From: Lachnospiraceae bacterium
GTDB lineage: Bacteria; Bacillota; Clostridia; Lachnospirales; Lachnospiraceae
Assembly: GCA_017450065.1 (NCBI GenBank)
Contig: JAFSYI010000064.1
Span: forward strand, 1-45,939
DNA: 45,939 nucleotides
Reading direction: 5' to 3'
A program made the translations under genes and the position numbers. This document shows, piece after piece, positions 29,832-45,939 of this stretch (within the stretch, counting starts at the first letter, position 1; each line of letters starts with the position of its first letter). The notes beneath the pieces are model-generated. The model was not told where the DNA came from. It saw only the letters and a program-made list of their open reading frames with translations, and made no database searches.

Positions 29832-31385
29832 TTATTTAGCATAATCGGTAACGCGACTCTCACGAATAACGTTAACCTTGATCTGACCCGGATATTCCAT
29901 TTCCTCTTCTATCTTCTTGGAAATGTCTCTTGCGAGTAATACCATATCTGCGTCATTTACCTGCTCAGGAACTACCATGATCCGGACTTCACGTCCTGCC
30001 TGAATAGCAAAAGACTTATCAACTCCCTTAAAGGAATTCGTAATATCTTCAAGTTGTTTTAATCTGTTAGTGTATGTCTCTAATGTTTCCCTTCTTGCTC
30101 CCGGACGGGCTGCCGAAATAGTATCGGCTGCCTGAACCAGTACTGCAACAAGTGACTGCGGTTCAACATCGCCGTGATGAGCCTCTACCGCATTGATGAC
30201 CGTTGCCGACTCCTTATACTTCCTGCACAGGTCAACACCCAGCTGGATGTGTGAACCTTCCATCTCATGATCGACTGCCTTACCTATATCATGGAGCAGA
30301 CCTGCCCTCTTGGCAAGGCGTACATCTATGCCGATCTCCGAAGCCAACAGGCCGCAGAGAAGGGATACTTCAATTGAATGCTTAAGTACATTCTGACCAT
30401 AAGATGTTCTGAAGCGGAGCCTTCCGAGCAGCTTTATAAGCTCGGGATGTATCCCGTGAACGCCGACTTCAAGTGTAGCCGACTCACCTTCCTCGCGGAT
30501 CATGGTCTCGACCTCCTTCTGAGCCTTCTCAACCATCTCCTCGATTCTTGCGGGATGTATACGTCCGTCAACAATGAGCTTCTCAAGTGCGATGCGGGCA
30601 ACTTCACGCCTTATCGGATCGAAGCCGGACAAAACAACGGCTTCAGGTGTATCGTCTATGATAAGGTCAACACCTGTCATCGTCTCAAGGGTTCTTATAT
30701 TTCTTCCCTCACGACCGATGATCCTTCCCTTCATTTCATCATTAGGCAGGGGAACAACGGATATTGTTGTCTCCGCAACATGGTCTGCAGCGCATCTCTG
30801 TATTGCGCCGACCACATATTCCTTAGCCTTCTTGTCTGCCTCTTCCCTGGCCCGGTTTTCAAGTTCCTTGACCATGACGGCAGTTTCGTGTTTTACATCA
30901 TCTTCAACAGTTTTTAACAGATATTCTTTTGCTTGTTCAGAGGTTAATCCGGATATTCTCTCCAGTTCCTGTACACGTTGTTCATTAAGCTTACTTACCT
31001 GCTCTTTTTGCTTTGCCAGTTCTTCTTCCTTCTTCGCGAAGCTGGCTTCACGCTTCTCAATTGCATCGGTCTTCTTGTCGAGATTCTCTTCCTTCTGCTG
31101 CACACGACGCTCCAAACGTTGTAATTCTGCCCGTCTTTCCTTGGTTTCCTTCTCACTGTCATTCTTGGCACGGATGGATTCTTCCTTAACCTCGAGCAGC
31201 CCTTCGCGTTTCTTCGCCTCAGCAGTTTTAAGAGCCTCATCGATAATCTCTCTGGCCTTCTGCTCAGCGTTGCCAATCTTCTCCTCATCGGTCTTCCTCT
31301 TATTTTCGTAACCCATTCTGTAGGAAACGAAACAGCCGGCCGCCAGAAGAACTAATGCAATAGCAATAATGATTACATATTGCAC
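29832..31385 (-). CDS. rny: ribonuclease Y
   Basis: 517 residues. An N-terminal membrane anchor ([20 protein letters not shown]) is followed by a long charged coiled coil (about 25-200), a KH domain ([15 protein letters not shown]) and an HD domain ([25 protein letters not shown]). RNase Y is the main membrane-bound endonuclease starting mRNA decay in many Firmicutes. The start is a GTG behind GGAGG, since no ATG is placed as well. A promoter lies inside the end of recX, so rny is transcribed separately. Full length. Confidence 0.96.
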
Positions 31386-31465
31386 AGGGCACCTCCTTAT
31401 AAAGTTTTCATTGTACGATTTATATAGAATACAACGATTCTACTTTAAAAAACTACAACAAATAA

Positions 31466-31494
31466 ATATTATACTTTTTAGGATGTTATGTCAA
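31466..31494 (-). promoter_or_regulatory. rny promoter
   Basis: On the minus strand TTGACA (31494-31489), 17 bases, TAATAT (31471-31466); a TATAAT read two bases earlier has a spacer of only 15. It overlaps the end of recX and leaves a leader of about 75 bases before the GTG. Confidence 0.55.
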
Positions 31495-31951
31495 GTAATT
31501 CTTCATCAAGGATCCGGTTTACCCTGTCTGTTTTAAAGCCCTTGTTGAACATATAAGCAAGCATTTTCTGTCGGGCAGTATGATCCAATGAGGATAGATC
31601 ACGGCATTTCTTATGGATAAGATGTCTGATCAGTTCATCCTCGGCATCATCGTCGGCATATTCTTCCATAAGGGCCAGGGCTATAAAGTCGGAAGAAACT
31701 CCTTTCTCAAGAAGCTTGCGTTCCGTCTCTCTCCTGCTCCTCACTCCGACCGAGCACCTCGCATAATTAACGGCATAACGAAGGTCATCCACATATCCGA
31801 AAGACTTAACATACTCAAGTGCTTGATCAACTGCCTCCTGCTCAAATCCCGCATGTGCAAGCTTGTCCCTGAGCCCGCGCTCGGTATAGTCCCTCGCCGT
31901 CAAAAGACGCATCGCCTTAAGCCTTGCCTCCCTGCTGTTCCTGTCGTCCAC
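31478..31951 (-). CDS. recX: RecX regulatory protein
   Basis: 157 residues with the three-helix tandem repeats of RecX: KAMRLLTARDYTERGLRDKL, EQEAVDQALEYVKSFGYVDDLRYA, and SRRETERKLLEKGVSSDFIALAL. RecX modulates RecA filaments, usually inhibiting them. A GTG start lies five bases after the recA stop, with GGAGG provided by the last recA codons, so the two are translated together and share the SOS-controlled promoter. Confidence 0.9.
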   Translation of the reverse strand: MDDRNSREARLKAMRLLTARDYTERGLRDKLAHAGFEQEAVDQALEYVKSFGYVDDLRYAVNYARCSVGVRSRRETERKLLEKGVSSDFIALALMEEYADDDAEDELIRHLIHKKCRDLSSLDHTARQKMLAYMFNKGFKTDRVNRILDEELLDITS

Positions 31952-31956
31952 GCTTC

Positions 31957-32988
31957 TTATTCCTCCGAAGGTGTCGTATCACCTTCATCCGAACCGGTCA
32001 GTCCGTAGTGTTCACGCACCTTCTGTTCGATCTCGTCAAGGAGCTCGGGATTCTGTTCAAGATACTGCTTGGTGTTCTCCCTGCCCTGGCCGATCTTCTG
32101 TCCGTTATACGCATACCATGCGCCGGACTTGTTTATAACATCAATATTGGCGGCAAGGTCAACAATATCGCCCACCATGGATATTCCCTTACCGAACATA
32201 ATGTCAAATTCGGCCTCCTTGAAGGGAGGTGCGATCTTATTCTTCACAACCTTTACACGGGTCCTGTTGCCTATAACCTCTCCGCCCTGTTTAAGTGACT
32301 CAATCCTTCTTACATCAAGACGGACAGAAGAATAAAACTTAAGCGCACGTCCGCCTGTTGTTGTTTCGGGATTTCCGAACATGACTCCAACCTTCTCACG
32401 AAGCTGGTTGATGAAAATGACCGTACAATTAGACTTCGAGATAACAGCTGTCAGCTTACGAAGGGCCTGTGACATAAGGCGGGCCTGAAGTCCCACATGC
32501 GAATCACCCATATCGCCGTCAATCTCAGCCTTGGGTACAAGGGCTGCAACCGAATCCACTACGATTATATCTACCGCTCCGGAACGGACCATGGTTTCGG
32601 TTATCTCAAGGGCCTGCTCACCGTTATCCGGCTGGGAAATATACAGATTATCTATATCAACTCCTATATTCTTCGCATATACCGGATCAAGGGCATGCTC
32701 CGCATCAATAAAGCCTGCAATACCTCCCCTCTTCTGTACCTGGGCTATCATATGAAGTGTTACTGTTGTCTTACCGGATGACTCGGGACCATAGATCTCC
32801 ACGATCCTGCCCTTGGGAATACCGCCAAGGCCCAGCGCAGTGTCAAGGCTCAGGGAACCCGTAGGGATCGTCTCGACATTCATGTGATTGGATGTATCGC
32901 CGAGCTTCATTACTGATCCCTTGCCATACTCCTTCTCTATTTTCTGTAATGCAACTTCCAATGCCTTTAATTTCTCTTCTCTTTCCAT
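31957..32988 (-). CDS. recA: recombinase RecA
   Basis: 343-residue DNA strand-exchange ATPase and SOS coprotease. Walker A is GPESSGKT (67-74), Walker B is in [14 protein letters not shown], and the L1/L2 loops are visible as [24 protein letters not shown] (in parts) and [21 protein letters not shown]. The acidic tail ends [10 protein letters not shown]. The start has GGAGACGAAATGG with ribosome site GGAGA. A perfect SOS box overlaps its promoter region. Full length, no inteins. Confidence 0.98.
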
Positions 32989-33031
32989 TTCGTCTCCTTT
33001 ACACTCCCGCCGTTAATCGAACATGTTTTTT

Positions 33032-33043
33032 GAACATTCGTTC
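33032..33043. promoter_or_regulatory. SOS (LexA/DinR) box, primary
   Basis: GAACATTCGTTC fits the Gram-positive LexA consensus GAAC-N4-GTTC exactly. It lies just downstream of the recA -10, over the likely start point, where LexA would block transcription. Confidence 0.85.
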
Positions 33044-33055
33044 GTCCTAATGGGT

Positions 33056-33084
33056 AATATAAAACATTCGTTCGAAAATGTCAA
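33056..33084 (-). promoter_or_regulatory. recA promoter
   Basis: On the minus strand TTGACA (33084-33079), 17 bases, TATATT (33061-33056). The spacer itself contains a second SOS-like site, so the promoter is bracketed by LexA sites. Confidence 0.8.
33062..33073. promoter_or_regulatory. SOS box, secondary (one mismatch)
   Basis: AAACATTCGTTC differs from GAAC-N4-GTTC at the first base only and shares the ATTCGTTC core with the primary box exactly 30 bases away. It lies between the -35 and -10 of recA. Confidence 0.65.
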
Positions 33085-33204
33085 GCGGTTTTCAGTTATT
33101 TTGGTGATTTTGATATTTTTTGAAATCAGTCGTTGCTCCGACCGATCTTAACGTCATAAATTATACAATAATCAATATGAACATATGGGAAATATATGGG
33201 ACCC

Positions 33205-33228
33205 GAAGACGAAAATCCGTTCGTCTTC
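33205..33228 (-). other. stem-loop at the cinA stop
   Basis: GAAGACGAA-AATCCG-TTCGTCTTC is a perfect 9-bp hairpin overlapping the cinA stop codon. There is no U-tract on either side, so it may be a transcript-end structure rather than a terminator. The stretch 33085-33204 shows nothing else. Confidence 0.45.
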
Positions 33229-34003
33229 AGGAGAAATTCTTCTCACTGTAATATTCAAGCACGCACATCCGAAGAAGCGCCAGAGCAGCTGAGGTTGCCG
33301 CACATCTTATCCTTGTCCTGTCACCTTCGAAATTATATTTCTCAACCCTTGTCTTGCCGCACACGCTGCAGCCGACATATACAAGACCCACCGGCTTATC
33401 TTCACTTCCTCCGTCGGGGCCTGCTATTCCGGTTGTGGATACGGTAACGTCAGCCTTGCTTGTCTGGGCACAGCCCTTGGCCATTTCCTTGGCAGTCTGT
33501 TCACTTACGGCACCGTACTTTACAAGAGTTGACTTCTTGACATTAAGCCTTGTTCTTTTTGCCTTGTTTGAATAGGTGACGAAGCCCTCCTTAAAAATAT
33601 CGGAGGCTCCCGGAATATCTATTATCGAAGAAGCAACCATGCCGCCTGTACAGGATTCACAGGTGGAAAGATACAGGTTGTTCGTCTTAAGAAGGTCCAC
33701 CACTGACTGAGCCAGTGTTGTATCCTTATCAGTTGCATATATACTAAGTCCGAAACGGCTCTTGATCTCCTTTACAAGACGTTTGCCAAGCTTCCTGCCG
33801 GAATCATCACCCTCATCAACGGCCGTGAGGGTAATAAGAACCTCACCGGGGGTGGAGCTGAGTTCAATACGAGGATTTTTACTGCCAAGAAGGTCCTTTA
33901 TGGAATTCCTGACATCCTTCTCCCTCATTCCGCATATCCTGAAATATTTCACAAATGATTCTTCTTTCTGTATCTCCACTGTATCCGGCTTATCCTTGGC
34001 CAT
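33227..34003 (-). CDS. cinA: CinA family protein lacking the MoCF-like N-domain (nicotinamide-nucleotide amidase type)
   Basis: 258 residues from ATG 34003 behind GGAGGAATTAAG; the longer reading runs back into pgsA. Residues about 15-95 match the middle KH-like part of CinA (FRICGMREKDVRNSIKDLL, PGEVLITLTAVDEG). Residues about 100-255 are the PncC amidase domain: LAQSVVDLLKTNNLYLSTCESCTGGMVASSI, TYSNKAKRTRLNV, GAVSEQTAKEMAKG, STTGIAGPDGGSEDKPVGLVYVG. Classic CinA (about 410 residues) begins with a MoaB/MoCF-like domain of about 170 residues, and none is present. PncC deamidates nicotinamide mononucleotide. The gene precedes recA, the usual com/SOS neighbourhood. Confidence 0.88.
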   Translation of the reverse strand: MAKDKPDTVEIQKEESFVKYFRICGMREKDVRNSIKDLLGSKNPRIELSSTPGEVLITLTAVDEGDDSGRKLGKRLVKEIKSRFGLSIYATDKDTTLAQSVVDLLKTNNLYLSTCESCTGGMVASSIIDIPGASDIFKEGFVTYSNKAKRTRLNVKKSTLVKYGAVSEQTAKEMAKGCAQTSKADVTVSTTGIAGPDGGSEDKPVGLVYVGCSVCGKTRVEKYNFEGDRTRIRCAATSAALALLRMCVLEYYSEKNFS

Positions 34004-34028
34004 CTTAATTCCTCCACTGAATGATAAC

Positions 34029-34574
34029 TTAATGTTCGTCGTTTTTAAGAACTTCCCTGTTTTTGTAAAGATAGTCAACAAGCGATACCACTGTCAGTAT
34101 AAGCGCTACCCATACAACAACCTGTGTCAGTATCGCATACAGGTCAAACTGCAGGTCACCTATCAGCATGCCTATCATGATCATCTGAAATACGGTTTTG
34201 AACTTGCCCCAGTAGCTTGCGGCAATTACGACACCGTTGTCCGATGCAACAAGCCTGAACCCGCTTATTATGAATTCACGGCTGATTATGACTATCACTA
34301 TCCATGATGCAAGCATGCCCTTTCCGGTAAGGCAGACCAGGGCCGAGCAAACAAGCAGCTTATCGGCCAGCGGATCCATAAACTTACCGAAATTGGTAAC
34401 GAGATTGTATTTTCTTGCTATCTTACCGTCGAGCAGATCGGTAAGGCTGGCTGTAATGAACAGGGTAAGGGCTATCCACTTACCATATCCTTCCGGGATA
34501 TCGTTTAGCATAAAGAACACAAAGAACGGGACCATCAAAACCCTTAAAACTGTCAGCTTATTAGGCAGATTCAT
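34029..34574 (-). CDS. pgsA: CDP-diacylglycerol-glycerol-3-phosphate phosphatidyltransferase
   Basis: 181 residues from ATG 34574, behind GGAG placed nine bases before it; this start lies within the end of rimO. The CDP-alcohol phosphotransferase motif DG-x2-AR-x8-G-x3-D-x3-D is intact in DLLDGKIARKYNL and FGKFMDPLADK. Four to five membrane spans follow the N-terminal LTVLRVLMVPFFVFFML. It makes phosphatidylglycerol phosphate, the first committed step to phosphatidylglycerol and cardiolipin. Between rimO and cinA, as in many Clostridia. Confidence 0.95.
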   Translation of the reverse strand: MNLPNKLTVLRVLMVPFFVFFMLNDIPEGYGKWIALTLFITASLTDLLDGKIARKYNLVTNFGKFMDPLADKLLVCSALVCLTGKGMLASWIVIVIISREFIISGFRLVASDNGVVIAASYWGKFKTVFQMIMIGMLIGDLQFDLYAILTQVVVWVALILTVVSLVDYLYKNREVLKNDEH

Positions 34575-35901
34575 CACACAATTCTCCAATCAGATCATAT
34601 TCGTTGGCGCCGGTAACCCGGACCTTTACGATATCACCGCTCATGAGCTCACGGTCTGAGTCAAAAAACAGCATTCCGTCAACTCCGGGCCCATCCATGT
34701 AGGTCCTTGCCGCATAAACGTCTTCTTCCACAAGCCTTCCTTCAACTATCACGGACAGCTCTCTTCCGGTCATTGAAAGAGCCCTGTTAAAAGCTATCTC
34801 CTGTTGGAGCTCCATGACCTCATCCCGCCGTTTTTCCTTTATTTCATCATCTATCTGGTCATCCATTTCGGCTGCTTTTGTTCCTTCTTCGGCCGAATAG
34901 GTAAAAATGCCAAGCCTGTCAAAGCGCTCTTCCCTCACAAAATCCAACAGCATTTCATGGTCTTTCTCATCTTCACCGGGAAACCCGCTGATAAGGGTAG
35001 TCCGGATAGCAATATCCGGGATCATTTCCCTAAGCCTTCCTATACGTTTCTTAATATCATCACGGCTCGTACGCCGTCCCATCCTTCTTAAAACCTTATC
35101 CGAAGCGTGCTGAATCGGCATATCTATATAATGGCATATCTTGGGCTCTTTCTTTATTACACTTATGAGCTCATCCGTTATCTCCTCGGGATAACAGTAT
35201 AAAAGACGTATCCAGCTGATCCCGTCTATCCTGCACAGCTTCTTAAGAAGCTGCGGCAGGCTCTTCCTGCCGTATATGTCAAGACCGTACAGTGTCGTCT
35301 CCTGAGCTACCAGAATGAGTTCCTTCACTCCTTTCCCTGCAAGCCTCTTTGCTTCATTTACAAGAAGTTCCATGGGGACTGACCTGTAATGTCCCCGCAG
35401 TTTCGGAATGATACAATACGTGCATAATTTGTTGCAGCCTTCCGCAATCTTAAGATATGAATAATACCCTCCGGTAGTCAGTACACGGTTCACACCGGGT
35501 TCTATCGGACGGTCTATATCATCAAGGTCCTTAACGTATTCACCCTTAAAAACCCTGTCAAGTGCAGATGCTATCCTGTCATAGGCCGTTGTCCCTATAC
35601 AGGCATCCACTTCAGGCATTTCTTCCCTTATTTCATCAGCATATCTCTGCGCCAGACACCCTGTTACGATCAGGGCCCTGCACTTTTTCAAGGGATCGGT
35701 CCTTAATTCTCCCAACCGGATTATGGTATTGATGCTCTCCTCCTTGGCATCACCGATGAAGCAACAGGAATTAACGATGAAAACGTCAGCTTCTTCTTCG
35801 TCATCCGTAAAATCGTACCCTCTCTCTCTGAGCGTTCCGAGCATGTTCTCGGAATCAACAAGATTCTTATCGCACCCTAGCGAGACAAACAATACCTTCA
35901 T
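34561..35901 (-). CDS. rimO: ribosomal protein uS12 methylthiotransferase RimO
   Basis: 446 residues. Three parts are seen: the UPF0004 domain with cluster cysteines C10, about C46 and C82 (SLGCDKN, VNSCCF, TGCLAQ); the radical SAM core with CNKLCTYC (C156, C160, C163); and a C-terminal TRAM domain (GRELSVIVEGRLVEEDVYAARTY in parts). RimO adds a methylthio group to an aspartate of ribosomal protein S12. The DSENMLG start and GETTLYG-like segment (AQETTLYGLDIYG) separate it from MiaB. It overlaps pgsA by 14 bases. Confidence 0.95.
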   Translation of the reverse strand: MKVLFVSLGCDKNLVDSENMLGTLRERGYDFTDDEEEADVFIVNSCCFIGDAKEESINTIIRLGELRTDPLKKCRALIVTGCLAQRYADEIREEMPEVDACIGTTAYDRIASALDRVFKGEYVKDLDDIDRPIEPGVNRVLTTGGYYSYLKIAEGCNKLCTYCIIPKLRGHYRSVPMELLVNEAKRLAGKGVKELILVAQETTLYGLDIYGRKSLPQLLKKLCRIDGISWIRLLYCYPEEITDELISVIKKEPKICHYIDMPIQHASDKVLRRMGRRTSRDDIKKRIGRLREMIPDIAIRTTLISGFPGEDEKDHEMLLDFVREERFDRLGIFTYSAEEGTKAAEMDDQIDDEIKEKRRDEVMELQQEIAFNRALSMTGRELSVIVEGRLVEEDVYAARTYMDGPGVDGMLFFDSDRELMSGDIVKVRVTGANEYDLIGELCDESA

Positions 35902-35948
35902 ATCAGGGGTTACTCTCCTATTACCTTGACAACTCCCGTATTAAGTTC

Positions 35949-36140
35949 TTATATGGCCACGGAGAGAGGTTTCTTATCCTCTGCATCCCGGACAGGAGTC
36001 GGTGCACCGTCAATAAGCTGTCTTGCCCGCTTGCTCGTAGCCATTACTATCGAATAGCGGCTGTTGACAACAGGCTGCTCGCCTTCCTCCACTTCACTGT
36101 TTACCACCTTCATAAGGTCGCTGTATGACGGATGTAACAT
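35949..36140 (-). CDS. rpoZ: RNA polymerase omega subunit
   Basis: 63 residues, short but typical of this gene in Clostridia: MLHPSYSDLMKVV, SRYSIVMATSKRARQLIDG and the C-terminal KKPLSVAI. It stabilises the beta-prime subunit in the core polymerase. The ATG follows the gmk stop directly (TAAATG), with GGAGG upstream inside gmk. Confidence 0.92.
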   Translation of the reverse strand: MLHPSYSDLMKVVNSEVEEGEQPVVNSRYSIVMATSKRARQLIDGAPTPVRDAEDKKPLSVAI

Positions 36141-36779
36141 TTATCCTTCCTCCTTATTATTTAAAAATTCATCAAACTCTTTTATTATCGTATCTATCGT
36201 ATCTGAGTTCCTGAATGCGGCATGTTTGGCGCATCTGACCGTATTATGCACTTCCCCGATGCATTCCCCAAGGTCGTCGTTTATTATAAGAAAATCATAT
36301 TTTCCGATCTCCCTTGATTCTTCGGCTCCCCGTCTCATCCGTTTCATTATGACTTCTTCGCTCTCGGTCCCCCGTTTCTTAAGGCGGTTATAAACCTCAC
36401 CGGCACTCGGGGGCATAACAAACATCAGGGCCGCCTCGGGGCACTTCTCTTTTACCAGGAAGGCTCCCTGCATCTCGATCTCAAGGATCACGTCCTTCCC
36501 CTTGTTCAGCATATCATCCACATATTGCCTGGGAGTTCCGTAGTAATTCCCCACATACTCCGCATGCTCAAGGAATTCATCCGCGGCGATCATCTTCTCG
36601 AATTCATCCCTGGTCTTGAAGAAATACTCCCTTCCGTCAACCTCGCCCGGTCTCGGGGCCCTGGTTGTTGCGGATACAGACAGGGCATAATTGTCATATC
36701 TTCTGATCAGTTCTTTAACTATGGTTCCTTTGCCTGATCCGGCAAACCCGGAAATGATCAACAGTATACCTTTTCTCAT
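36141..36779 (-). CDS. gmk: guanylate kinase
   Basis: 212 residues. P-loop SGFAGSGKGT, GMP-binding SVSATTRAPRPGEVDGREYFF, and lid DVILEIEMQGA are all as expected; the late RMRRGAEESREIGKYDFLIIND segment is also characteristic. It phosphorylates GMP to GDP. The usual neighbour remA (DUF370), which often sits between yicC and gmk in Clostridia, is absent: only 45 bases separate gmk from yicC. Confidence 0.96.
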   Translation of the reverse strand: MRKGILLIISGFAGSGKGTIVKELIRRYDNYALSVSATTRAPRPGEVDGREYFFKTRDEFEKMIAADEFLEHAEYVGNYYGTPRQYVDDMLNKGKDVILEIEMQGAFLVKEKCPEAALMFVMPPSAGEVYNRLKKRGTESEEVIMKRMRRGAEESREIGKYDFLIINDDLGECIGEVHNTVRCAKHAAFRNSDTIDTIIKEFDEFLNNKEEG

Positions 36780-36824
36780 ATATTTTACCTGTTTTGTTAA
36801 TACACTCGGAATATTATAAAAATA

Positions 36825-37703
36825 TTACTCTATGTTCTGGATCTGCTCGCGCACCTTCTCAATATCAGTCTTAAGATCTATGGCTACATTGGATGTTGAC
36901 AGATCTGTCGACTTAGAAAGGATCGTATTGGCCTCACGGTTCATTTCCTGAGCTATAAAATCAAGCTTGCGGCCCACGCTTCCGCCTGATAAAAGAGTAT
37001 CTTCCGTACCCTTTATATGACTCTTAAGCCTTACTATCTCCTCATCCACACACACCCTGTCGGCATACAGAGTCACCTCAGTAAGGATACGGCTCTCATC
37101 TATGGATGCATCATTAAGCATGTCGTGAACACGGTCATACATTTTCTTCCTGTATTCTTCAATAATGGCGGGGGCCCGTTTCTCAATATCGTCCACATAC
37201 TTAAGCATACCTTCAAGCTTATCAAGAAGGTCCTTCTTAAGATTGTCGCCCTCGGTAAGCCTTGACTTGACAAATGCTTCACAGGCCCTGCGGACCACTC
37301 CTTCGAGTTCTTTCCACAGTTCCTCCTCGTCAACCTCCTGTTCCTCAAGGGTAAAGACTTCCGGATACCTTGACAGAGCGGAAACCCTTACATCATTCTC
37401 AAGACTGAAGTCATCGCTCATTTCATTCAGATAGCTTAAGTATGACCTTGCCATCTCCCTGTTGTATTTCAGGCTGACATTGTCTTCGGTATAATCCTCA
37501 TAGGTTATATAAAGGTCTACCTTGCCTCTCTGCATGTATTCTTTAAGGATACCGCGGATAGAGGTTTCAAAGAATCCGATCTTCTTGGGCATCTTGATGT
37601 TCACATCAAGATAACGGTGGTTTACGGACTTTACCTCAACTGTGATCTTTCGCTTCTCATCACAAAATTCGGCCCGTCCGAATCCCGTCATACTCTTTAT
37701 CAT
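36825..37703 (-). CDS. yicC: YicC/YloC family endoribonuclease
   Basis: 292 residues from the ATG behind AGGAGA; the reading from 37730 has no ribosome site. Family signatures at both ends: MIKSMTGFGRAE and VEVKSVNHRYLDVNIKMP at the start, and GRKLDFIAQEMNREANTILSKSTD near the end. YicC is an oligomeric endoribonuclease described as affecting small-RNA turnover in E. coli. In Firmicutes it heads the gmk-rpoZ string. Located 77 bases after the broken rqcH. Confidence 0.93.
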   Translation of the reverse strand: MIKSMTGFGRAEFCDEKRKITVEVKSVNHRYLDVNIKMPKKIGFFETSIRGILKEYMQRGKVDLYITYEDYTEDNVSLKYNREMARSYLSYLNEMSDDFSLENDVRVSALSRYPEVFTLEEQEVDEEELWKELEGVVRRACEAFVKSRLTEGDNLKKDLLDKLEGMLKYVDDIEKRAPAIIEEYRKKMYDRVHDMLNDASIDESRILTEVTLYADRVCVDEEIVRLKSHIKGTEDTLLSGGSVGRKLDFIAQEMNREANTILSKSTDLSTSNVAIDLKTDIEKVREQIQNIE

Positions 37704-37780
37704 TTCGATTCTCCTAAATTGGGATGGCATTCCATCACATTCGCATACAGATTACATTATATTCCAAGCCACAATTCGCG

Positions 37781-39522
37781 TCAAGAAAAAGAACACAGGG
37801 TAAGCCCGTCAATCGAGGGTGAAGCCACAAGAGAATAATTGGTGTAGTAGACAACAAAACCGGGCTTGGCCCCCGCAGGTTTTTTAACCTCCTTTTTCTG
37901 AACATAGTCTATTTCAACCTTGTCCTGTTCCCGGCCTTTGGAATAATAAGCCGCAAGAGCCCCTGCCTCCTCAAATGTTTTATCGGTAAGTTCCCGTCCG
38001 TCCGACTTTACCAGAACGTGTGATCCCGGTATCTTTTTTGCATGAAACCACCAGTCCGATCCTGATGCCAGTTTAAATGTCAGATAATCGTTTTGGAAGT
38101 TGTTTTCCCGACATAGATATGGAAACCGTCAGAGTTTATATAATGAAAGGGTTTGCTTTTATATTCCTTCTTTTTATCCTTACCCTTTTTATGTATATAT
38201 CCGGCTTCGACAAGTTCCAGCCGTATCTCGGTGAGGTCATTTTCCAAAAGAGCTATATCAAGCGACGCCTGTATGGATTCAAGATGATCTATCTCCTCCT
38301 TTGTTTCCCTGGTCTGCACACTAAGCGCCTCCTCGGTTCTTTTAAGCTTTCCGTATCTGTCAAAATACTTTTTTGCATTTTCCGATGCGGTAAGATCGGG
38401 ATCAAGAGGTATAGTGATCTTCTCCCCGGTATAGTAATTATCCGCTTCAAGGGACCGGGCTCCGGGTTTTGCTCCGTATCCGTAGGTATTAAGCAGCTCG
38501 CCGTAGATCCTGTATTTTTCTTTCTTCTCCGTATCCTTAAGCTGTTTAAGCTGAAGGTCATACTTTTTTACATTCCTTTCAAGAGCCGTAGCGACGATCC
38601 TGCGAAGGTCTGCCGATTTCTGTCGTATCTTTGTATATACATTCCTTCTCGCATAGAAATTCTCAAGTATATACGACATGGAGTCATTCTTTTCAGGTGT
38701 AAGGTCTCCGTATCCTTTAAGTTCAATGGCCGAAAAATCGACAGGCAATGAGTCCTTAAGGATCATGTTCGGAGCAAAGTCACCTGCCTTCACACCATCC
38801 ATGAGCCAGATAAAGTTGTTGTAAAGGTGCCGCATCTCTTCAGCACTTAATGCATTAGCGCTTTTGTCGGGATCAAGCCCGCTCCTGTATATCAGTTCCT
38901 GGGCCGACTGGGGTGAAAAACCGGTAAAGGACGTATATATAGCCTTTGCAAGCTGCATGGGTTTTTTGGCTATAGTCTCTCCAAAGCTATCCAAAGATAT
39001 ATTCAGGGGATCTTTCTTGTCCAGTGTATTGGGTATAAAATAGGAACGCCCTGGAAGGACTTCCCGCACCGAACTTACCGCCGAGGATATGTGTTTTATA
39101 CTGTCAATTACCATATCCTTATCATCCAGAAAAATGATGTTCGAATGCTTTCCCATGATCTCGACAACAAGGGTCTTTTTACACATATCACCCATCTCGT
39201 TCAAATGGTCTATATCGAACATAAGGATACGTTCCAAAGACGGCTGCCTTATCGCGCTTATCCTGCCGTTCTGTATATGTTTTCTAAGCAGCATGCAAAA
39301 GCCCGGTGCCGCCATGGGCGATTGCTTGTTAACGTCCGTAAGATATAAAAAAGGCAGTGATGCATCTGCTGAAATGAGCAGACGATACTGGCCCTTTGCT
39401 GCCTTCAGCGTAAGCATTATCTCATCGTTTTCAGGCTGCGCTATCTTATATATCCTGCTTCCGAGTATCTTCTCTCTTAACTCGCTCAAAAGAGCGGCTA
39501 TCACTATTCCGTCAAGTGCCAT
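37781..39522 (-). pseudogene. rqcH: rqcH (NFACT/FbpA family), broken by a 1-base deletion
   Basis: RqcH recognises stalled 50S subunits and adds Ala tails in ribosome quality control. The first 480 codons (MALDGIVIAALLSELREKI onward) hold the NFACT-N, coiled-coil and start of the NFACT-R domain, then stop after HIYVGKTTSKTII. If one A is added to the run of four at 38103-38106 (minus strand), reading continues for about 108 codons: HIYVGKNNFQNDYLTFKL, ASGSDWWFHAKKIPGSHVL, FVVYYTNYSLVASPSIDG, to a stop at 37783. That restores the normal length of about 580 and the conserved NFACT-R core. The lesion may be natural or a sequencing error; every other part looks functional. Confidence 0.85.
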
Positions 39523-39546
39523 ATCATACTTCCCTTCTATACAACT

Positions 39547-41697
39547 TTAAGATCCGGCCTCGCCCGTTAATTTATGCAGTCTGAAGGCAAGCATCGTAAG
39601 ATCGTCAAACTGGGGGGCACCGGCAACAAAATCATCCACGTCCGCCCGTATATCCTTAAGCAGGGTCTTTGTGTCATCCGTCCACTTATCGGACAGAACC
39701 GCCTCAAGGCGCTCAGGACCGTAAAGCCTGTTATCCGCATCGGTGGCCTCAAGTACTCCGTCAGTATACAGAAGCAGGCAGTCCCCCTTCTTAAGGGTTA
39801 TCTCATTCGAAATATACTGTATTCCCGCCATCGCGGCAAGCGGTAATTTCTTCTTCTGTGGTTTCAGTATCTCTATACTTCCGTCAGCATGGATCACGTA
39901 TGGATATTCATGTCCCGCATCGCAATAGGTCATAACCCCTGTATTAAGATCGATGATCCCTATCCATGCGGTGACAAACAAGCCCTCTCCGTTTCCTTCG
40001 CACAACTGGTCACTTGTCTTTATAAAAATGTCTTCCACACTCGTTCCCGACTTTGAGTAATTCTTTATGAGAGTTTTGGCTATCACCATAAAGAGGGCTG
40101 CCGGAACTCCCTTGCCGGAAACATCGGCAATAACCAGTGCTATATGGTCATCATCAACCATGAAAAAATCATAAAAATCGCCGCCCACCTCTTTGGCCGG
40201 ATCCATCTTGGCATACAGTTCGAATTCCTTTCTGTCCGGAAATGGCGGAAAAACCGATGGGAGCATAGACGCCTGGATATGTGTGGCTACTGAAAGCTCG
40301 GCTCCTATCCTCTCTTTCTCGGCTGTGATGGCGGTTATATCCCTGATATACTGTTTCATCCGGCCTGTCATGGATTCAAATGACTTGGCCAGGGTCTGCA
40401 CCTCATCCCCCGTATCTATATCCCAGGAAAAATCGAGGGTATCACCCTCAAGAGCGCTTACATCCTTCGTAAGCATGACAATGGGAGCCGCAAGTCTTTC
40501 GGCGAATTTTTTGGATATAAAAGCCACAGACAAAGCGACCACCAGAAGAAGGGCCACCATATATACAACCGATCTGAAAATAGAACTCCTTACGAAATCG
40601 CGCTGTTCCATATTGGATCTGAATAATTCGGATACAAGATTTCTTGAAGGCTCTGATACTTCCCGTTCAGGAAGAACGGTCAGATAGGACCATCCGACCG
40701 TTTCCATGGGGGCATAGGCCACATAATACTCCTGTCCATCAAGATCGATAACACTCACACCCGCTTTACCCGAAACGGCATCCAGAGCCAGAGCTTTAAG
40801 CTCGGCATTGGGACTCTCCCTTAAGTCTGTCTGCATATCTTCGGAAACGGATAATTCTCCCTTGCTGCTTCCCGAAAAAAGTATCTGCCCGTAATTATTT
40901 ATGATACAGGCGTAGCCCTTCTCTCCCACATGAAAGTTATATACCTCATCATGTATGCTATCAAGATAAAGGCCGGCACCCGCAACTCCCCTGAGCACAC
41001 CGTCCGTATAGACCGGGATCCCACATGTCAATGCCTGTTTACCGGTATCGGCATCGCTGATTATCGAAGTAAAGACCGGCTTACCTTCCCTGACCGCCTC
41101 AATATACCAGGGACGTTCCCTGGCCTCAAAAAACAAAGGCTCCCCGTTTTTTGAAACATTGTATTCGGATACAGCCTCCGCACACAGGAATATTCCGGAT
41201 TCAGTGGCAAAATAATCCGAAACCATTGAATCGGTTGACTCGTTTACGGCCATCATGATCCCCTGCATATTGCTTATCAGGTCCACTTCATTTTTTATAC
41301 TCTCATCTTCCGGGTCAACATCCTTCCCATATGCCGTATAGACAACAATCTCTCCCATGTCAGCCTCATCATACTGCCTGAATTCATTTATCCCGTATCT
41401 ATCCTTAAAAAGATAAATATCCTCGGCACTGTCGGCAATTATATCTATCGCTTTTAAAAATTCGGAGAATTCCCTGTCAGCGATCCCGGCTCTTCCAACA
41501 GATGATTCGCTAAGAAGCTCCTTGGCCTGAATGCTCATGGCCTCCTTGGACATTTCTTCTACCCGGCTGCCGGCCTTCTTGCTCACTTCTATGATACTGC
41601 TCCGCATCATGCTCATCTGGATGAGCAGTATCAGTCCTATCACAAGAAGCACGGCACCCAGTGTCATTATTATTACACGAAATATCTTCTTCCTCAC
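39547..41697 (-). CDS. SpoIIE-type PP2C phosphatase with dCache and HAMP domains
   Basis: 716 residues. First span 8-28, large extracellular dCache-like region about 40-370 (ESGIFLCAEAVSEYNVSKNGEPLFFEARERPWYIEAV in parts; GLYLDSIHDEVYNFHVGEKGYACIINNYGQILFSG), second span about 375-395, HAMP, then the phosphatase: HIQASMLPSVFPPFP, GGDFYDFFMVDDDH, ADVSGKGVPAALFM, LLYTDGVLEATD and FDDLTMLAF. All metal-binding Asp residues are present. Such proteins dephosphorylate anti-anti-sigma (STAS) proteins in partner-switching systems (family knowledge); no STAS or anti-sigma gene is in the window. Its partner may be elsewhere. Confidence 0.9.
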   Translation of the reverse strand: MRKKIFRVIIMTLGAVLLVIGLILLIQMSMMRSSIIEVSKKAGSRVEEMSKEAMSIQAKELLSESSVGRAGIADREFSEFLKAIDIIADSAEDIYLFKDRYGINEFRQYDEADMGEIVVYTAYGKDVDPEDESIKNEVDLISNMQGIMMAVNESTDSMVSDYFATESGIFLCAEAVSEYNVSKNGEPLFFEARERPWYIEAVREGKPVFTSIISDADTGKQALTCGIPVYTDGVLRGVAGAGLYLDSIHDEVYNFHVGEKGYACIINNYGQILFSGSSKGELSVSEDMQTDLRESPNAELKALALDAVSGKAGVSVIDLDGQEYYVAYAPMETVGWSYLTVLPEREVSEPSRNLVSELFRSNMEQRDFVRSSIFRSVVYMVALLLVVALSVAFISKKFAERLAAPIVMLTKDVSALEGDTLDFSWDIDTGDEVQTLAKSFESMTGRMKQYIRDITAITAEKERIGAELSVATHIQASMLPSVFPPFPDRKEFELYAKMDPAKEVGGDFYDFFMVDDDHIALVIADVSGKGVPAALFMVIAKTLIKNYSKSGTSVEDIFIKTSDQLCEGNGEGLFVTAWIGIIDLNTGVMTYCDAGHEYPYVIHADGSIEILKPQKKKLPLAAMAGIQYISNEITLKKGDCLLLYTDGVLEATDADNRLYGPERLEAVLSDKWTDDTKTLLKDIRADVDDFVAGAPQFDDLTMLAFRLHKLTGEAGS

Positions 41698-41702
41698 AGA
41701 TT

Positions 41703-43358
41703 TCAGACTCCTTTATACACGATCCCGAGCATCGTCAGATCATCGAACTGAGGCGCGTCTCCCACAAAGGCATCAATATCCTTCCTGACATTTAAAAGCA
41801 TATCCTCGATGCTGTCTTTCGAGTGTCTCTGAAGAGATTCTATCATACGCTTTTCCCCAAACAGCTCCTGTTCACCATTGGTTGCCTCAGTAACACCATC
41901 CGTATACAGGAACAGACGCTCTCCCGGTTTAAGATCGGTCTCGGTCTCCCTGAACTTAAGTCCCTCCATGGTCGCAAGGGGCATTCCGTGCTTATCCTTC
42001 TCTATCCTGAAGCCCTCTTCAAGGCGATAAAATGCGGGATACTCATGACCACCGCTTGCGAATATAACATGGCCGGTGGAAATTGTCAGTATACCGAACC
42101 AGACCGTTACAAAGAGCTCTGCTTCATTGCCTTCACACAATTGGTTGTTGGCATCCGCAAGCACTTCCCCGGGACCCGAATAATTTCCGGACAGAGCCCT
42201 GTTCTTGATAAGAGTCTTGGCGATCACCATGAACAATGCCGCCGGAACACCCTTGCCGGAAACATCGGCCATAACAAGGCCAAGGTGATCATCATCTATC
42301 ATAAAGAAATCATAGACATCTCCCCCAACCTCTTTGGCCGGATTCATGGAGTCGTACAGATCAAATTCATTCCTTTCGGGAAATGGCGGGAATATTCTCG
42401 GAAGCATATCTGCCTGGATCTGCGTGGCAACATTAAGCTCCGCGCTTATACGCTCCTTCTCGGCAGTGATCTTGGTAATGTTTGCAACATAATCAAGGAT
42501 CTTCAGCTGCATGATCCGGGTCTCATTATACAGAGTCTCGATCTCATCCCCGCTATGGATATCCATTGAAATGACACTTTCTTTGGAATAACCTTCTTCT
42601 TCATCAGAAAAGGCCTTGGCGCCTTCCGTCAGCTGCTCGATGGGTTTTACAGCATATTTCCTTACAAGCATGATCCCTATGATTACGGTAAGTACGGTAA
42701 TGACAAAACTGAAATTGATCATGCGGTAACGGAAATGATTTCTGTCAGCCATTACCTGATTCATATCTATATCAACACCCACAGTGCTGACAGCATTTCC
42801 TGCGGAATCATATATGGGTTCGTAGGCAGAGCACACCCACTCACCACCCATATTGGATACATCAGGATCAATATGTACATTGGTGGTATACATGGAAAAC
42901 TCCTCTGCGTTTGGTCCCACAAGTCCGAGATATTCTATTCCCTCAGGGGCAGAAACCAGATAAACACTGACAGATCCCTCAATTGAGTGAATATAGATAT
43001 ACTTAACATCCATATCCTTGCGAATCTGTTCCAATGAATTATAAAGCGCTTCAAACTGTTCCCGGACACCCTTTTTCTCAATATAATCCCAAACAGGCTC
43101 CCAATTACCGGTCTCCTCCGCTTCCTTTCGCAGCTCTTTGAACTCATCTTCTTCTACAAGAAGCCGCAACCTCGCAACGAGATCACCGTCGACGGAATCC
43201 GCGACTGTAAGTGAAAGTTTTGAGGCGATCTCTTTATAATACTCATCCACCTTTGTTCCATGCTCTAACGTGCTGGTAAAAAACAACGCGGCAGCAAGGA
43301 TGAGCATAGAACACAAAACCATACCGCTAAGCTTAATTCCGAGACTCATCTTTTTCAT
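41703..43358 (-). CDS. SpoIIE-type PP2C phosphatase with Cache domain
   Basis: 551 residues. First span 9-29, extracellular Cache-like part about 30-205 (WVCSAYEPIYDSAGNAVSTVGVDIDM), second span about 215-235, HAMP-like linker, then phosphatase motifs IQADMLPRIFPPFPERNEF, GGDVYDFFMIDDDHLG, ADVSGKGVPAALFM, LYTDGVTEATNG and FDDLTML. The catalytic part is nearly identical in plan to the next gene (39547), so the pair arose by duplication and kept different sensors. Its start overlaps the stop of the transporter fusion upstream by four bases, so the three are one transcript. Target unknown. Confidence 0.9.
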   Translation of the reverse strand: MKKMSLGIKLSGMVLCSMLILAAALFFTSTLEHGTKVDEYYKEIASKLSLTVADSVDGDLVARLRLLVEEDEFKELRKEAEETGNWEPVWDYIEKKGVREQFEALYNSLEQIRKDMDVKYIYIHSIEGSVSVYLVSAPEGIEYLGLVGPNAEEFSMYTTNVHIDPDVSNMGGEWVCSAYEPIYDSAGNAVSTVGVDIDMNQVMADRNHFRYRMINFSFVITVLTVIIGIMLVRKYAVKPIEQLTEGAKAFSDEEEGYSKESVISMDIHSGDEIETLYNETRIMQLKILDYVANITKITAEKERISAELNVATQIQADMLPRIFPPFPERNEFDLYDSMNPAKEVGGDVYDFFMIDDDHLGLVMADVSGKGVPAALFMVIAKTLIKNRALSGNYSGPGEVLADANNQLCEGNEAELFVTVWFGILTISTGHVIFASGGHEYPAFYRLEEGFRIEKDKHGMPLATMEGLKFRETETDLKPGERLFLYTDGVTEATNGEQELFGEKRMIESLQRHSKDSIEDMLLNVRKDIDAFVGDAPQFDDLTMLGIVYKGV

Positions 43359-45939
43359 ACCTTCATCTCCCTTTTTTCTTTCTTATTATTAATTCCATCC
43401 ATTAACGATCCTGCAACCAGAAATACCAGACCTGAGATAACAAGTGAAGCAGCCACAACGCTTAAGCCCGGACCGACTCCTACAAGAATTACATAGGAGA
43501 ATACAAAAGGTCCTATGGCCTGCGCAACATTGACAACCAGATTATAGACTCCCAGTGCAGGACCGACTCCGTATTTTTCCACTGCTTTAAGGTCCGTATA
43601 ATATCCGGACTGAAGCGGAAGTCCAAAGCTGTCGGATATACCAAGAAGAGCCAGCGCTATAAACAGTGCCGGGATATTCTGCAGGTACACTACAATTACA
43701 AAGGCGACCGCATAAATCAGGGAGGCTGTTACCACTCCGACAGTTTTTCTTTTTTCCTTCGAGAAGAAGTTGGTCAACACCCCGCCGAATGCCATAACAA
43801 AAATTCCGTTTACCAGATATGAATAACCGATATAAGTCTCGGATAATCCATACCCACTTCCTACTATAGGATACAGATAGTTCAGGAAATAGAAGCATAT
43901 GGTAGTAGGTGTTACGATGAGGAGCAGGACCGCAATTACACGAATGTTAAGACAGAACCGGATAGTCTCCCGAAAACCTCCCGATGTTTCTCCTTCTTCC
44001 TCTCCTTTTCCGGGATGGCTTAGATACTTTGATGTAATAAAAAACATCGAGACGGAAAGAATTGTGGAAACCACAAATACCATCCGGTAGTTCATCCAGT
44101 TTACAAGGAAACCTCCGAACACTACTCCGCAGTTGATGCCGTTAAGTTCAGCTATATTGTACTGCGAAAACCCAAGATCCTTCTGTTCATCAGGAAGGTC
44201 GGTGATCCTCATATTGACCACCAGAAGGATAACACCCCAGCCTACGCCCTGAACCGCATTCCCAAGGATCAGCATCCAGATATTCGGAATGATCTTAAGG
44301 GCAAAGCCTGCGATAAACATCAGAGAAAATATCAGCATTGAGCGCTTTTCGCCCATCTTCTTTACTATCGTAACTCCGACCACCGAGAAAACAGCTCCGG
44401 TAATAACTTCCGCGGAAAGCGGAAGCGCAGCCATGATCTCGGGAGCAAATGACAGCCCCGAATCATTTTCAGCCACGTTCATGGCATACAGGGGCAAAAA
44501 AGCCGTTGGCAGGTTGGTGAGGAAAAATACCAGAAAGGAAACCATTCTCAGAACCTCCGGAGGAATTTCCTTCACATTGCCTGCGCCAAATGTTTTTTCC
44601 TTTTTATCGTACTCGGTAGTGCCTTTTACGAAATAGATTCCTTCCACTACCATAAGCATGACAACAACCGTGACAGCAAAGGTGTTGATGAGCGCATCCC
44701 AGACTAAATGCTTAAGCTCCCGGTTAAAACTTGCAACATCAGTACCCACCTCGATGATACCTATGGCTACGCCGTTTTCATCGAATATAGGATCATAAGT
44801 GAAAAGATACTCACCCTCAGCCGTGCTGCTCTGGTAGGTGATACCCTCCCCTGTTGTCAATACCATCTCTTCATTTGATCCCTCATACTCCCAGTCATAG
44901 GGATAAATCGCTCCGGTATTATCCTCAAGGCCGTAGCTTAAAACAATTTCCCCGTCAAGGTATTTGTACATCGAACAGTAGAGATCTTTCATAGAGTCCG
45001 ACTCATTAAAAAATACACTTGTGACGACTTTACGTACAGACAGATATTCCGGCCCCATGAAATCCTCCGCCCTGTCGAGGCTTTGGAATTCTTCCTTTGG
45101 CAGCTGGTTGCGAACCGTCGCCGATGCAAGCTCTGCCCTTGAAAAGAAAGCATCTGTCATCCTTGTCCGAAATTCGGGGATCACCACGGCAAGAATTAAG
45201 ACGGACAGCAGCATCGCTCCGGAAATAGCTCCCACAATCATCTTCATATAGGCATTGCCATTCTTTATGATGAACATCGCAGCCAAAAGCAGGTAATTCA
45301 AAAGAAGCAGAACTACTACCGTTAAAGCTATTTTCGATAAAATAGCAGGGACTAAATGGTTTAACCCTTTTTTACAGGAATCAAAATATTTAAACCGTGA
45401 ATCTCCCAGATAATGACGGACGGTGTAATCAGAGGATGTTGTAAGAGAATTTACCGCGCTGATGTTATAGACGATCTCACGATCATAAAAGTCCAGATCC
45501 TCCGTGATATCGGAAATCGTACCGGTATTCGTATCTATGGAGAGTATACACCTTTGGCCAATGTCCGATACGTAGAGTTTACCGCCAAAAAAACTGATAT
45601 CCCAGGGAATTGTCTGTTCCTTCCGATCCTTCGAAGAATAAAGCACCTCTTCTTCGCTGCCCCCATATCTTAAGATACGTCCGTCATAAGTACACAGGTA
45701 AACCACATCCGTTTCATCATCATATACAGCGCGGTGCAACATAGTACCGGCGTTTTCAAATGAAAAACTGCGCTCTCCCGTTCCCGGAGTTATCAGGCGG
45801 ATTTCTTCTGCGGTCTTGTAGATATAAGAAATTCCGTCCTTTGTCGGAGACAGCCCTGCGATATGAGGCTGCAGCGTCCTTTCTGTATACATGTAATGCG
45901 CAAGGCTCTGAACAAGGTTTCCTTCTTCATCGCACTCAA
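43355..45939 (-). CDS. beta-propeller/Cache/MFS transporter fusion, 5' end beyond window
   Basis: At least 860 residues; the frame is open back to the window edge, adding about 15 residues before the first Met (45892), so the start lies outside. Order, counting from that Met: beta-propeller-like repeats about 10-165 (AVYDDETDVVYLCTYDGRI, ISFFGGKLYVSDIGQR), two spans about 183-238, a Cache-like extracellular domain about 245-395 (FTYDPIFDENGVAIGIIEVGTDV), a third span 397-423, and an MFS transporter 445-835 (GAVFSVVGVTIVKKMGEKRS, GVGWGVILLVVNMRITDLP). Its Cache resembles that of the following phosphatase. It may be a transporter whose activity reports to the phosphatases. I know of no described fusion of this exact kind. 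Confidence 0.8.
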   Translation of the reverse strand, partial: ECDEEGNLVQSLAHYMYTERTLQPHIAGLSPTKDGISYIYKTAEEIRLITPGTGERSFSFENAGTMLHRAVYDDETDVVYLCTYDGRILRYGGSEEEVLYSSKDRKEQTIPWDISFFGGKLYVSDIGQRCILSIDTNTGTISDITEDLDFYDREIVYNISAVNSLTTSSDYTVRHYLGDSRFKYFDSCKKGLNHLVPAILSKIALTVVVLLLLNYLLLAAMFIIKNGNAYMKMIVGAISGAMLLSVLILAVVIPEFRTRMTDAFFSRAELASATVRNQLPKEEFQSLDRAEDFMGPEYLSVRKVVTSVFFNESDSMKDLYCSMYKYLDGEIVLSYGLEDNTGAIYPYDWEYEGSNEEMVLTTGEGITYQSSTAEGEYLFTYDPIFDENGVAIGIIEVGTDVASFNRELKHLVWDALINTFAVTVVVMLMVVEGIYFVKGTTEYDKKEKTFGAGNVKEIPPEVLRMVSFLVFFLTNLPTAFLPLYAMNVAENDSGLSFAPEIMAALPLSAEVITGAVFSVVGVTIVKKMGEKRSMLIFSLMFIAGFALKIIPNIWMLILGNAVQGVGWGVILLVVNMRITDLPDEQKDLGFSQYNIAELNGINCGVVFGGFLVNWMNYRMVFVVSTILSVSMFFITSKYLSHPGKGEEEGETSGGFRETIRFCLNIRVIAVLLLIVTPTTICFYFLNYLYPIVGSGYGLSETYIGYSYLVNGIFVMAFGGVLTNFFSKEKRKTVGVVTASLIYAVAFVIVVYLQNIPALFIALALLGISDSFGLPLQSGYYTDLKAVEKYGVGPALGVYNLVVNVAQAIGPFVFSYVILVGVGPGLSVVAASLVISGLVFLVAGSLMDGINNKKEKREMKV

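Follow-up and report, generated by a model that had tools for sequence, protein, structure and literature searches.

A propeller-Cache-MFS fusion encoded with PP2C phosphatases in Lachnospiraceae and its probable place in partner switching

Partner switching is usually drawn as a pathway leading from a sensor phosphatase to a STAS protein, from there to a kinase and finally to a sigma factor. The closest described systems, RsbU/RsbV/RsbW (SigB) and SiaABCD, share with the operon of the relative UBA3641 considered here a sensor-PP2C protein, a STAS protein with an SSAGLR motif and an HATPase_c_2 kinase. However, compared with RsbU and SiaABCD, this operon adds a transporter-sensor fusion, a binding protein and an enzyme. 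It differs further in that the genus lacks SigB/F/G factors above the cut-off used, and in that STAS is linked to an MscS channel or to its C-terminal domain.

The added components have counterparts in other systems. The MFS domain of the fusion has the same fold as the DHA1 MFS antiporters NorA, MdfA and VMAT, but the fusion carries in addition a transmembrane (TM) helix with an invariant Glu and an N-terminal propeller-Cache receptor, and its motifs A and C are incomplete. Its N-terminus matches part of the propeller of PknD-type NHL sensors, as well as the Pizza designs, although its output is a transporter and not a kinase. As in MprF/LPG synthase, an LPG_synthase_C-type enzyme is found beside a polytopic membrane protein in UBA3641; here, in contrast, the enzyme is a separate protein, its membrane partner is an MFS protein and no flippase domain is matched. 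Finally, the UBA3641 operon shares a TAXI-like binding protein with TRAP-TAXI systems, whereas inspection of the L035 ORF list reveals no DctM-type or other TRAP permease.

The window, that is, the whole stretch of DNA analysed, is an entire contig of 45,939 nucleotides (G000:C28:1-45939) from a Lachnospiraceae draft genome that is 88% complete. Three minus-strand genes lie at its end:

43355..>45937 (to the contig end at 45939), minus strand: sensor-MFS fusion, open reading frame; 860 of 980 residues by comparison with UBA3641, 5' end cut off
44705..44881, minus strand: extracellular part matched by sCache_3, fusion residues 353-411; below the Pfam cut-off
44642..44644, minus strand: codon of the invariant Glu (E552, full-length numbering) in the TM helix before the MFS domain; from the alignment, codon checked
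44546..44548, minus strand: codon of the invariant Arg (R584) at the start of MFS TM1; from the alignment, codon checked
43508..44542, minus strand: MFS domain with DHA1-like fold; from Pfam and fold search
43355..43358, minus strand: ATGA stop/start overlap of the fusion and PP2C-1, four shared bases in the sequence
41703-43358, minus strand: PP2C-1, open reading frame of 551 aa; N-terminal TM, extracellular Cache-like region, TM, weak HAMP, SpoIIE/PP2C
39547-41697, minus strand: PP2C-2, open reading frame of 716 aa with a GTG start; dCache_1 between two TMs, SpoIIE/PP2C

An earlier interpretation made from the letters alone (the sequence-only reading) had described a three-gene operon, with a fusion followed by two phosphatases carrying different sensors, in which overlapping stops and starts join the first two genes. 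The open reading frames and the ATGA overlap between the fusion and PP2C-1 are indeed present. The PP2C-1 stop lies 5 nt from the PP2C-2 start, and an AAAGGAG sequence inside the end of PP2C-1 is likely to be the ribosome binding site of PP2C-2; an NFACT gene is located 24 nt past PP2C-2. Pfam detects SpoIIE/PP2C in both phosphatases (E about 1e-45) and separates their sensors: dCache_1 is matched in PP2C-2 (E 3e-20), whereas the sensor part of PP2C-1 gives only weak sCache_3_3 (18 bits) and HAMP (13.8 bits) matches. The motifs GGD[FV]YD, ADVSGKG and FDD, the PP2C metal motifs, are kept in both proteins. In the fusion, MFS_1 is matched with an E of 5e-29 and sCache_3 with an E of 9e-5 (23 bits against a cut-off of 28.4).

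The first 120 codons of the fusion are missing because the window contig ends there. A full-length copy occurs in UBA3641 (G026; L035:13860-16802, which equals L056:10001-12940) and encodes 980 aa, 98% identical to the window protein across the shared 860 aa. In this copy the missing 120 codons and the remainder share one reading frame, which makes the propeller part of the fusion gene, as had been claimed; a separate propeller gene is refuted by L035 and L056. An artefact of reading is also ruled out, since the frame is open, is conserved to this extent in UBA3641 and recurs in RGIG4943, a Butyrivibrio MAG from roe deer rumen, with 85% identity in the best segment. Hydropathy and homology give the order TM, propeller, TM, TM, Cache, TM0 and a twelve-TM MFS domain.

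The propeller is weakly recognised by Pfam, with SGL in 4 of 18 N-termini (best E 1.7e-4) and NHL in 6 of 18 (best E 0.029). A profile of these 18 N-termini searched against the PDB matched NHL propellers, with the Pizza designs in first place (best E 2.4e-14) and domains of Brat, TRIM and PknD (1rwi, E 2e-7) below them; the match spans profile positions ~40-108 and 230-280 and not the whole ring. The MFS domain matched the 12-TM DHA1-type fold, and further MFS types as well. Foldseek placed NorA first (best E 1.6e-10, TM-score to target of 0.72-0.87 for the NorA entries), and its 50 listed matches also include MdfA and VMAT, lower down, together with the importers FLVCR1 and GLUT1, so that the fold does not tell the direction of transport. 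The uptake proposed in the sequence-only reading is therefore unproven: the nearest folds are DHA1 exporters, importers also score high, and amide-forming enzymes adjoin the gene. The full-length model has a mean pLDDT of 56.7, with a low-confidence N-terminal part; Cache strands can be seen in this low-confidence model, and the MFS part mostly reaches 60-86, with one loop below 50. By eye, motif A of the UBA3641 fusion has KxGxK without the acidic residue, and motif C has GxxxGxxxGG without the Pro; with these motifs incomplete, transport competence is not assured.

In UBA3641 the operon extends upstream on the same strand in the order STAS, HATPase, MscS, TAXI, CxxCxxCC, LPG, fusion and PP2C-1, with intergenic gaps from STAS through PP2C-1 of 91, 25, -4, -4, 4, 9 and -4 nt. 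A second UBA3641 contig begins within PP2C-1 and runs into PP2C-2 with a -4 overlap. Two of the upstream genes concern the output:

L035:9122-9421 (UBA3641): STAS with SSAGLR, the first gene of the operon
L035:9952-11334 (UBA3641): MscS with an RsbW/SpoIIAB-fold C-terminal domain near STAS; also in L043, L044, L066 and L079-L082

The statement that no STAS or anti-sigma gene lies nearby thus holds only as the window contig ends, the UBA3641 operon having both, and the hidden output would be in part an assembly artefact. The UBA3641 binding protein matches NMT1_3 (E 4e-80), which we take to identify it as TAXI. Neither a TRAP nor an ABC permease is found between STAS and PP2C on inspection of the UBA3641 ORF list, and Pfam finds no MprF flippase domain in the LPG and fusion genes of UBA3641. 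The LPG_synthase_C-type gene lies directly upstream of the fusion in L035, L057, L087, L088, L089, L090 and L099, with weak matches in L088, L089 and L099 (46-52 bits with a two-sequence profile).

The order in RGIG4943 is TAXI, CxxCxxCC, LPG, fusion and PP2C, and STAS, HATPase and MscS are absent from that fusion locus; these three genes are seen beside this type of cassette in one relative, UBA3641. The assembly of the window's genome yielded neither the LPG gene nor the first 120 fusion codons, and its STAS-HATPase pair is located on another contig, C17. A STAS gene presumably also stands upstream of the fusion in this genome, in a stretch not found in the assembly. The idea of an orphan without STAS is refuted for UBA3641 by its operon.

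The fusion and PP2C-1 (41703-45939) show 95-100% DNA identity to UBA3641 per 300-base step, compared with 86-93% for PP2C-2 and 74-92% for the genes beyond (window 30400-41697). The drop occurs within one contig in each of the two genomes, so that mixed binning alone is no explanation. A chimeric bin was considered and rejected, selected contig stretches having been checked by composition and identity; in tetranucleotide composition, the window correlates at 0.90-0.96 with five further stretches of the genome. The pattern suggests that the fusion/PP2C-1 cassette may have been exchanged recently, with misassembly or unequal constraint as the alternative.

The family was surveyed with a profile of 11 fusion-type proteins, each from one of 11 near genomes; 11 of the 21 near matching genomes thus supplied the profile's own rows. 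Matches comprise complete fusions, MFS proteins whose sensor is encoded separately, and contig-end fragments. Among 61 related genomes, 21 had a match, that of the window included; in a wider set of 392 genomes drawn from the whole order, 21 had one, in 16 of 173 genera. Together they give 41 distinct loci, 23 from the near set and 18 new in the order-wide set. A PP2C gene lies on the same stretch, within about 14 kb, at 27 of the 41, namely at 19/23 near-set and 8/18 order-wide loci: the association between MFS and PP2C is recurrent, and weaker outside the genus. Neither of the outcomes that the sequence-only reading named as counting against it occurred: the propeller belongs to the fusion gene, and MFS and PP2C remain together at 19 of the 23 near loci. 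At the four near-set exceptions (G035, G041, G013 and G023) the MFS gene lies no more than 3 kb from a contig end; the ten order-wide ones are G396, G375, G295, G259, G332, G074, G327, G142, G309 and G177. In total, 14 of 41 loci show no PP2C in the retrieved DNA, some of the order-wide ones being on long contigs. The window's genome offers a small control: of its five MFS loci, the two family members adjoin PP2C, whereas the contigs of the remaining three have none.

Other partners recur as well. At 20 of the 41 loci a binding protein is encoded nearby, of the TAXI, the Bmp or a third type. STAS and/or the RsbW-like HATPase is near nine, both being present at seven, and they share an operon with the fusion in UBA3641, which supports the link to STAS control suggested by the sequence-only reading. 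An amide- or aminoacyl-forming enzyme is near 27 loci and absent at 14, counting LPG_synthase_C, Aat, NRPS parts, ATP-grasp ligase and GNAT; leaving out GNAT, a generic superfamily, gives 20 of 41. The family MFS proteins are 15-23% identical to that of UBA3641 while keeping the Gly and Pro residues of the MFS core, and most near-locus MFS proteins share only 15-25% identity.

The window's genome contains a second module (G000:C53:45000-80394; L036, L037), with the order PP2C, sensor-MFS, binding protein, 3436-aa NRPS, PP2C and two ABC exporters, the latter of C39-type look by eye. Elsewhere an Aat gene directly follows the sensor-MFS gene (L088:9828-10484, L089:9959-10609 and L099:320-979; assigned by Pfam on the L088 copy alone), and two ABC exporters lie upstream at these same three loci.

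Two charged residues are conserved at the junction of receptor and carrier. In an alignment of 35 members, from which some near-identical copies and fragments were left out, position 552 is Glu in 32/32 fused proteins and position 584, at TM1, is Arg in 35/35 members. Three genomes encode the sensor and the MFS protein in adjacent separate genes, and in these split systems the last sensor TM carries the Glu, as judged by eye. The propeller-Cache receptor also occurs fused to HAMP and an adenylate/guanylate cyclase (L041:9191-11938 and L091:2738-5497, the cyclase match of the latter barely over the cut-off at 22.1 vs 21.9 bits); one of these two genes is 3 kb from a sensor-MFS gene, and the receptor-cyclase helix that matches TM0 has no Glu. 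This exchange of cyclase and MFS behind the same receptor places the MFS part in the position of an output domain. One report proposes that a variety of sensor domains act on PP2C by way of a coiled-coil linker and can be swapped among output enzymes (PMC12143880). In L086:8011-11454, a sensor-MFS protein and a solute-binding protein form one chain of 1147 aa, adjoining a PP2C, a lysine-aminomutase-like radical SAM protein and an ATP-grasp ligase; the single chain suggests that binding protein and MFS cooperate.

The window contig itself carries neither STAS nor HATPase. In relatives, SSAGLR is kept in 8/8 aligned STAS proteins (UBA3641 and seven other loci), and GGLG and the N-box Asn in 11/11 aligned HATPases. 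STAS is matched in 37/37 genus genomes (in G013 and G021 only within longer ORFs) and HATPase in 33/37. A SigB/F/G factor (TIGR02980) exceeds the cut-off in 0/37 genus draft genomes, compared with 21/24 other genomes of the order in the same search, which makes the sigma control suggested by the sequence-only reading doubtful. RpoD- or FliA-like targets are possible, as in Chlamydia, where an Rsb network governs the availability of the main sigma factor according to PMC4552016. STAS proteins with unknown targets, perhaps sigma factors, are reviewed in PMC8256260. Taken as a whole, the earlier interpretation is partly supported: its direction was right, its absent STAS was wrong, and uptake and sigma control are unproven.

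In the genus, STAS genes often have as neighbours MscS channels extended at the C-terminus by a domain of ~175 aa, or free-standing copies of this domain, which is found in 36/37 genus genomes. When its 55 matches are compared with the 53 strongest STAS matches, 22 have one of the latter no more than 6 kb away and 33 have none that close; 10/55 are within 6 kb of an HATPase match. Tight STAS/HATPase/MscS triads occur in L035, L079, L081 and L082, and stand-alone copies adjoin STAS in L050 and L077. The domain has no match among PDB sequences and no significant one in Pfam. Against HATPases, a profile of 4 sequences gives a probability of 7%, and one of 10 sequences 75% (E 2.6e-5, first 74 columns only). 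A fold search with a single-sequence model (pLDDT 58) ranks SpoIIAB, RsbW and UsfX at the top (best E 1.7e-4). Since GGxG is absent in 10/10 and DxG in 9/10 copies, it is probably a non-catalytic RsbW-like domain. Among the matches listed from open-licence PMC, taken as titles and abstract starts, no paper on a propeller-Cache-MFS fusion or an RsbW-like MscS domain appears.

We consider it fairly probable that the locus is the sensor and transport arm of Lachnospiraceae partner switching, a sensor-gated transporter feeding a PP2C-STAS-kinase switch. The extracellular propeller-Cache receptor would set the activity of the DHA1-fold carrier, to which it may be coupled by the TM helix with the invariant Glu and by the Arg at TM1, and the adjacent solute-binding protein (TAXI in the closest relative) would present the ligand. 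The cargo is most likely the product of the neighbouring enzyme, an amide or aminoacyl compound derived from an amino acid; this enzyme is LPG-synthase-C-like in the closest relative and NRPS, ATP-grasp, Aat or perhaps GNAT elsewhere. We infer the gating of the carrier, its substrate, the direction of transport and the identity of the ligand. The two Cache/PP2C proteins may sense how much of this compound, or of one related to it, is present outside, and may dephosphorylate the STAS protein, which would then take the RsbW-like kinase off its target; that STAS is the phosphatase substrate, and what the final target is, we likewise infer. The sequences themselves show the domain order, the structure of the UBA3641 operon, the gene association, the catalytic motifs, the invariant Glu and Arg and the lack of SigB/F/G in the draft genomes of the genus.

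The carrier might instead import an amino acid, peptide or ion handed over by the binding protein, with the sensors reporting its availability and the enzymes using what is imported. The binding proteins at 20/41 loci, the single MFS-binding protein chain in L086, the lack on inspection of a TRAP or ABC permease between STAS and PP2C in UBA3641 and the presence of GLUT1 and FLVCR1 among the fold matches all speak for such a role, but we regard it as rather doubtful: the top fold matches are DHA1 exporters (NorA, with MdfA and VMAT lower), and the NRPS and aminoacyl-transfer enzymes at many loci suggest a compound that is made and not consumed. The LPG-synthase-like enzyme directly upstream of the fusion at seven loci (three with weak scores) raises the prospect of a split MprF-like maker and flippase of aminoacyl lipids, with the sensors responding to envelope stress; this is improbable, as the same MFS family is paired with NRPS or ATP-grasp enzymes elsewhere.

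That the MFS part does not transport at all and is a membrane sensor signalling to the PP2C proteins seems similarly improbable. Such a role would fit the finding that one and the same type of receptor carries either a cyclase or an MFS part, the gaps in motifs A and C, and the invariance of the TM0 Glu and TM1 Arg; yet the propeller and Cache receptor senses already, the MFS-core Gly and Pro persist at 15-23% identity, and an adjacent biosynthetic enzyme points to a cargo. Least credible of all, and hardly to be expected, is that unrelated genes share one operon with no joint function. Fourteen of the 41 loci do lack PP2C, but the association holds at 19/23 near loci despite mostly 15-25% MFS identity, and PP2C adjoins none of the three ordinary MFS loci in the window's genome.

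The sensor-gated transporter that we favour could also form part of a closed circuit, in which the amino-acid-derived amide is made, exported by the gated MFS and read back by the binding protein and the Cache and propeller receptors, and the PP2C-STAS-RsbW-like kinase pathway controls MscS and not a sigma factor. This extension is unlikely as it stands; it draws on the MscS encoded with STAS and the kinase, a channel whose C-terminal domain has the RsbW/SpoIIAB fold but lacks kinase motifs. If true, partner switching would here have an ion channel for its output.

A lineage without detected SigB/F/G keeps several PP2C inputs, coupled to receptor-bearing transporters, and its STAS genes are linked to a channel with a pseudokinase-like RsbW domain. 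The exchange of cyclase and MFS, the MFS-binding-protein chain and the TM0 Glu and TM1 Arg provide exact handles for mutagenesis. Two testable questions follow: what STAS/RsbW pairs control where there is no SigB/F/G-type sigma factor, and whether a standard receptor module can gate a carrier.
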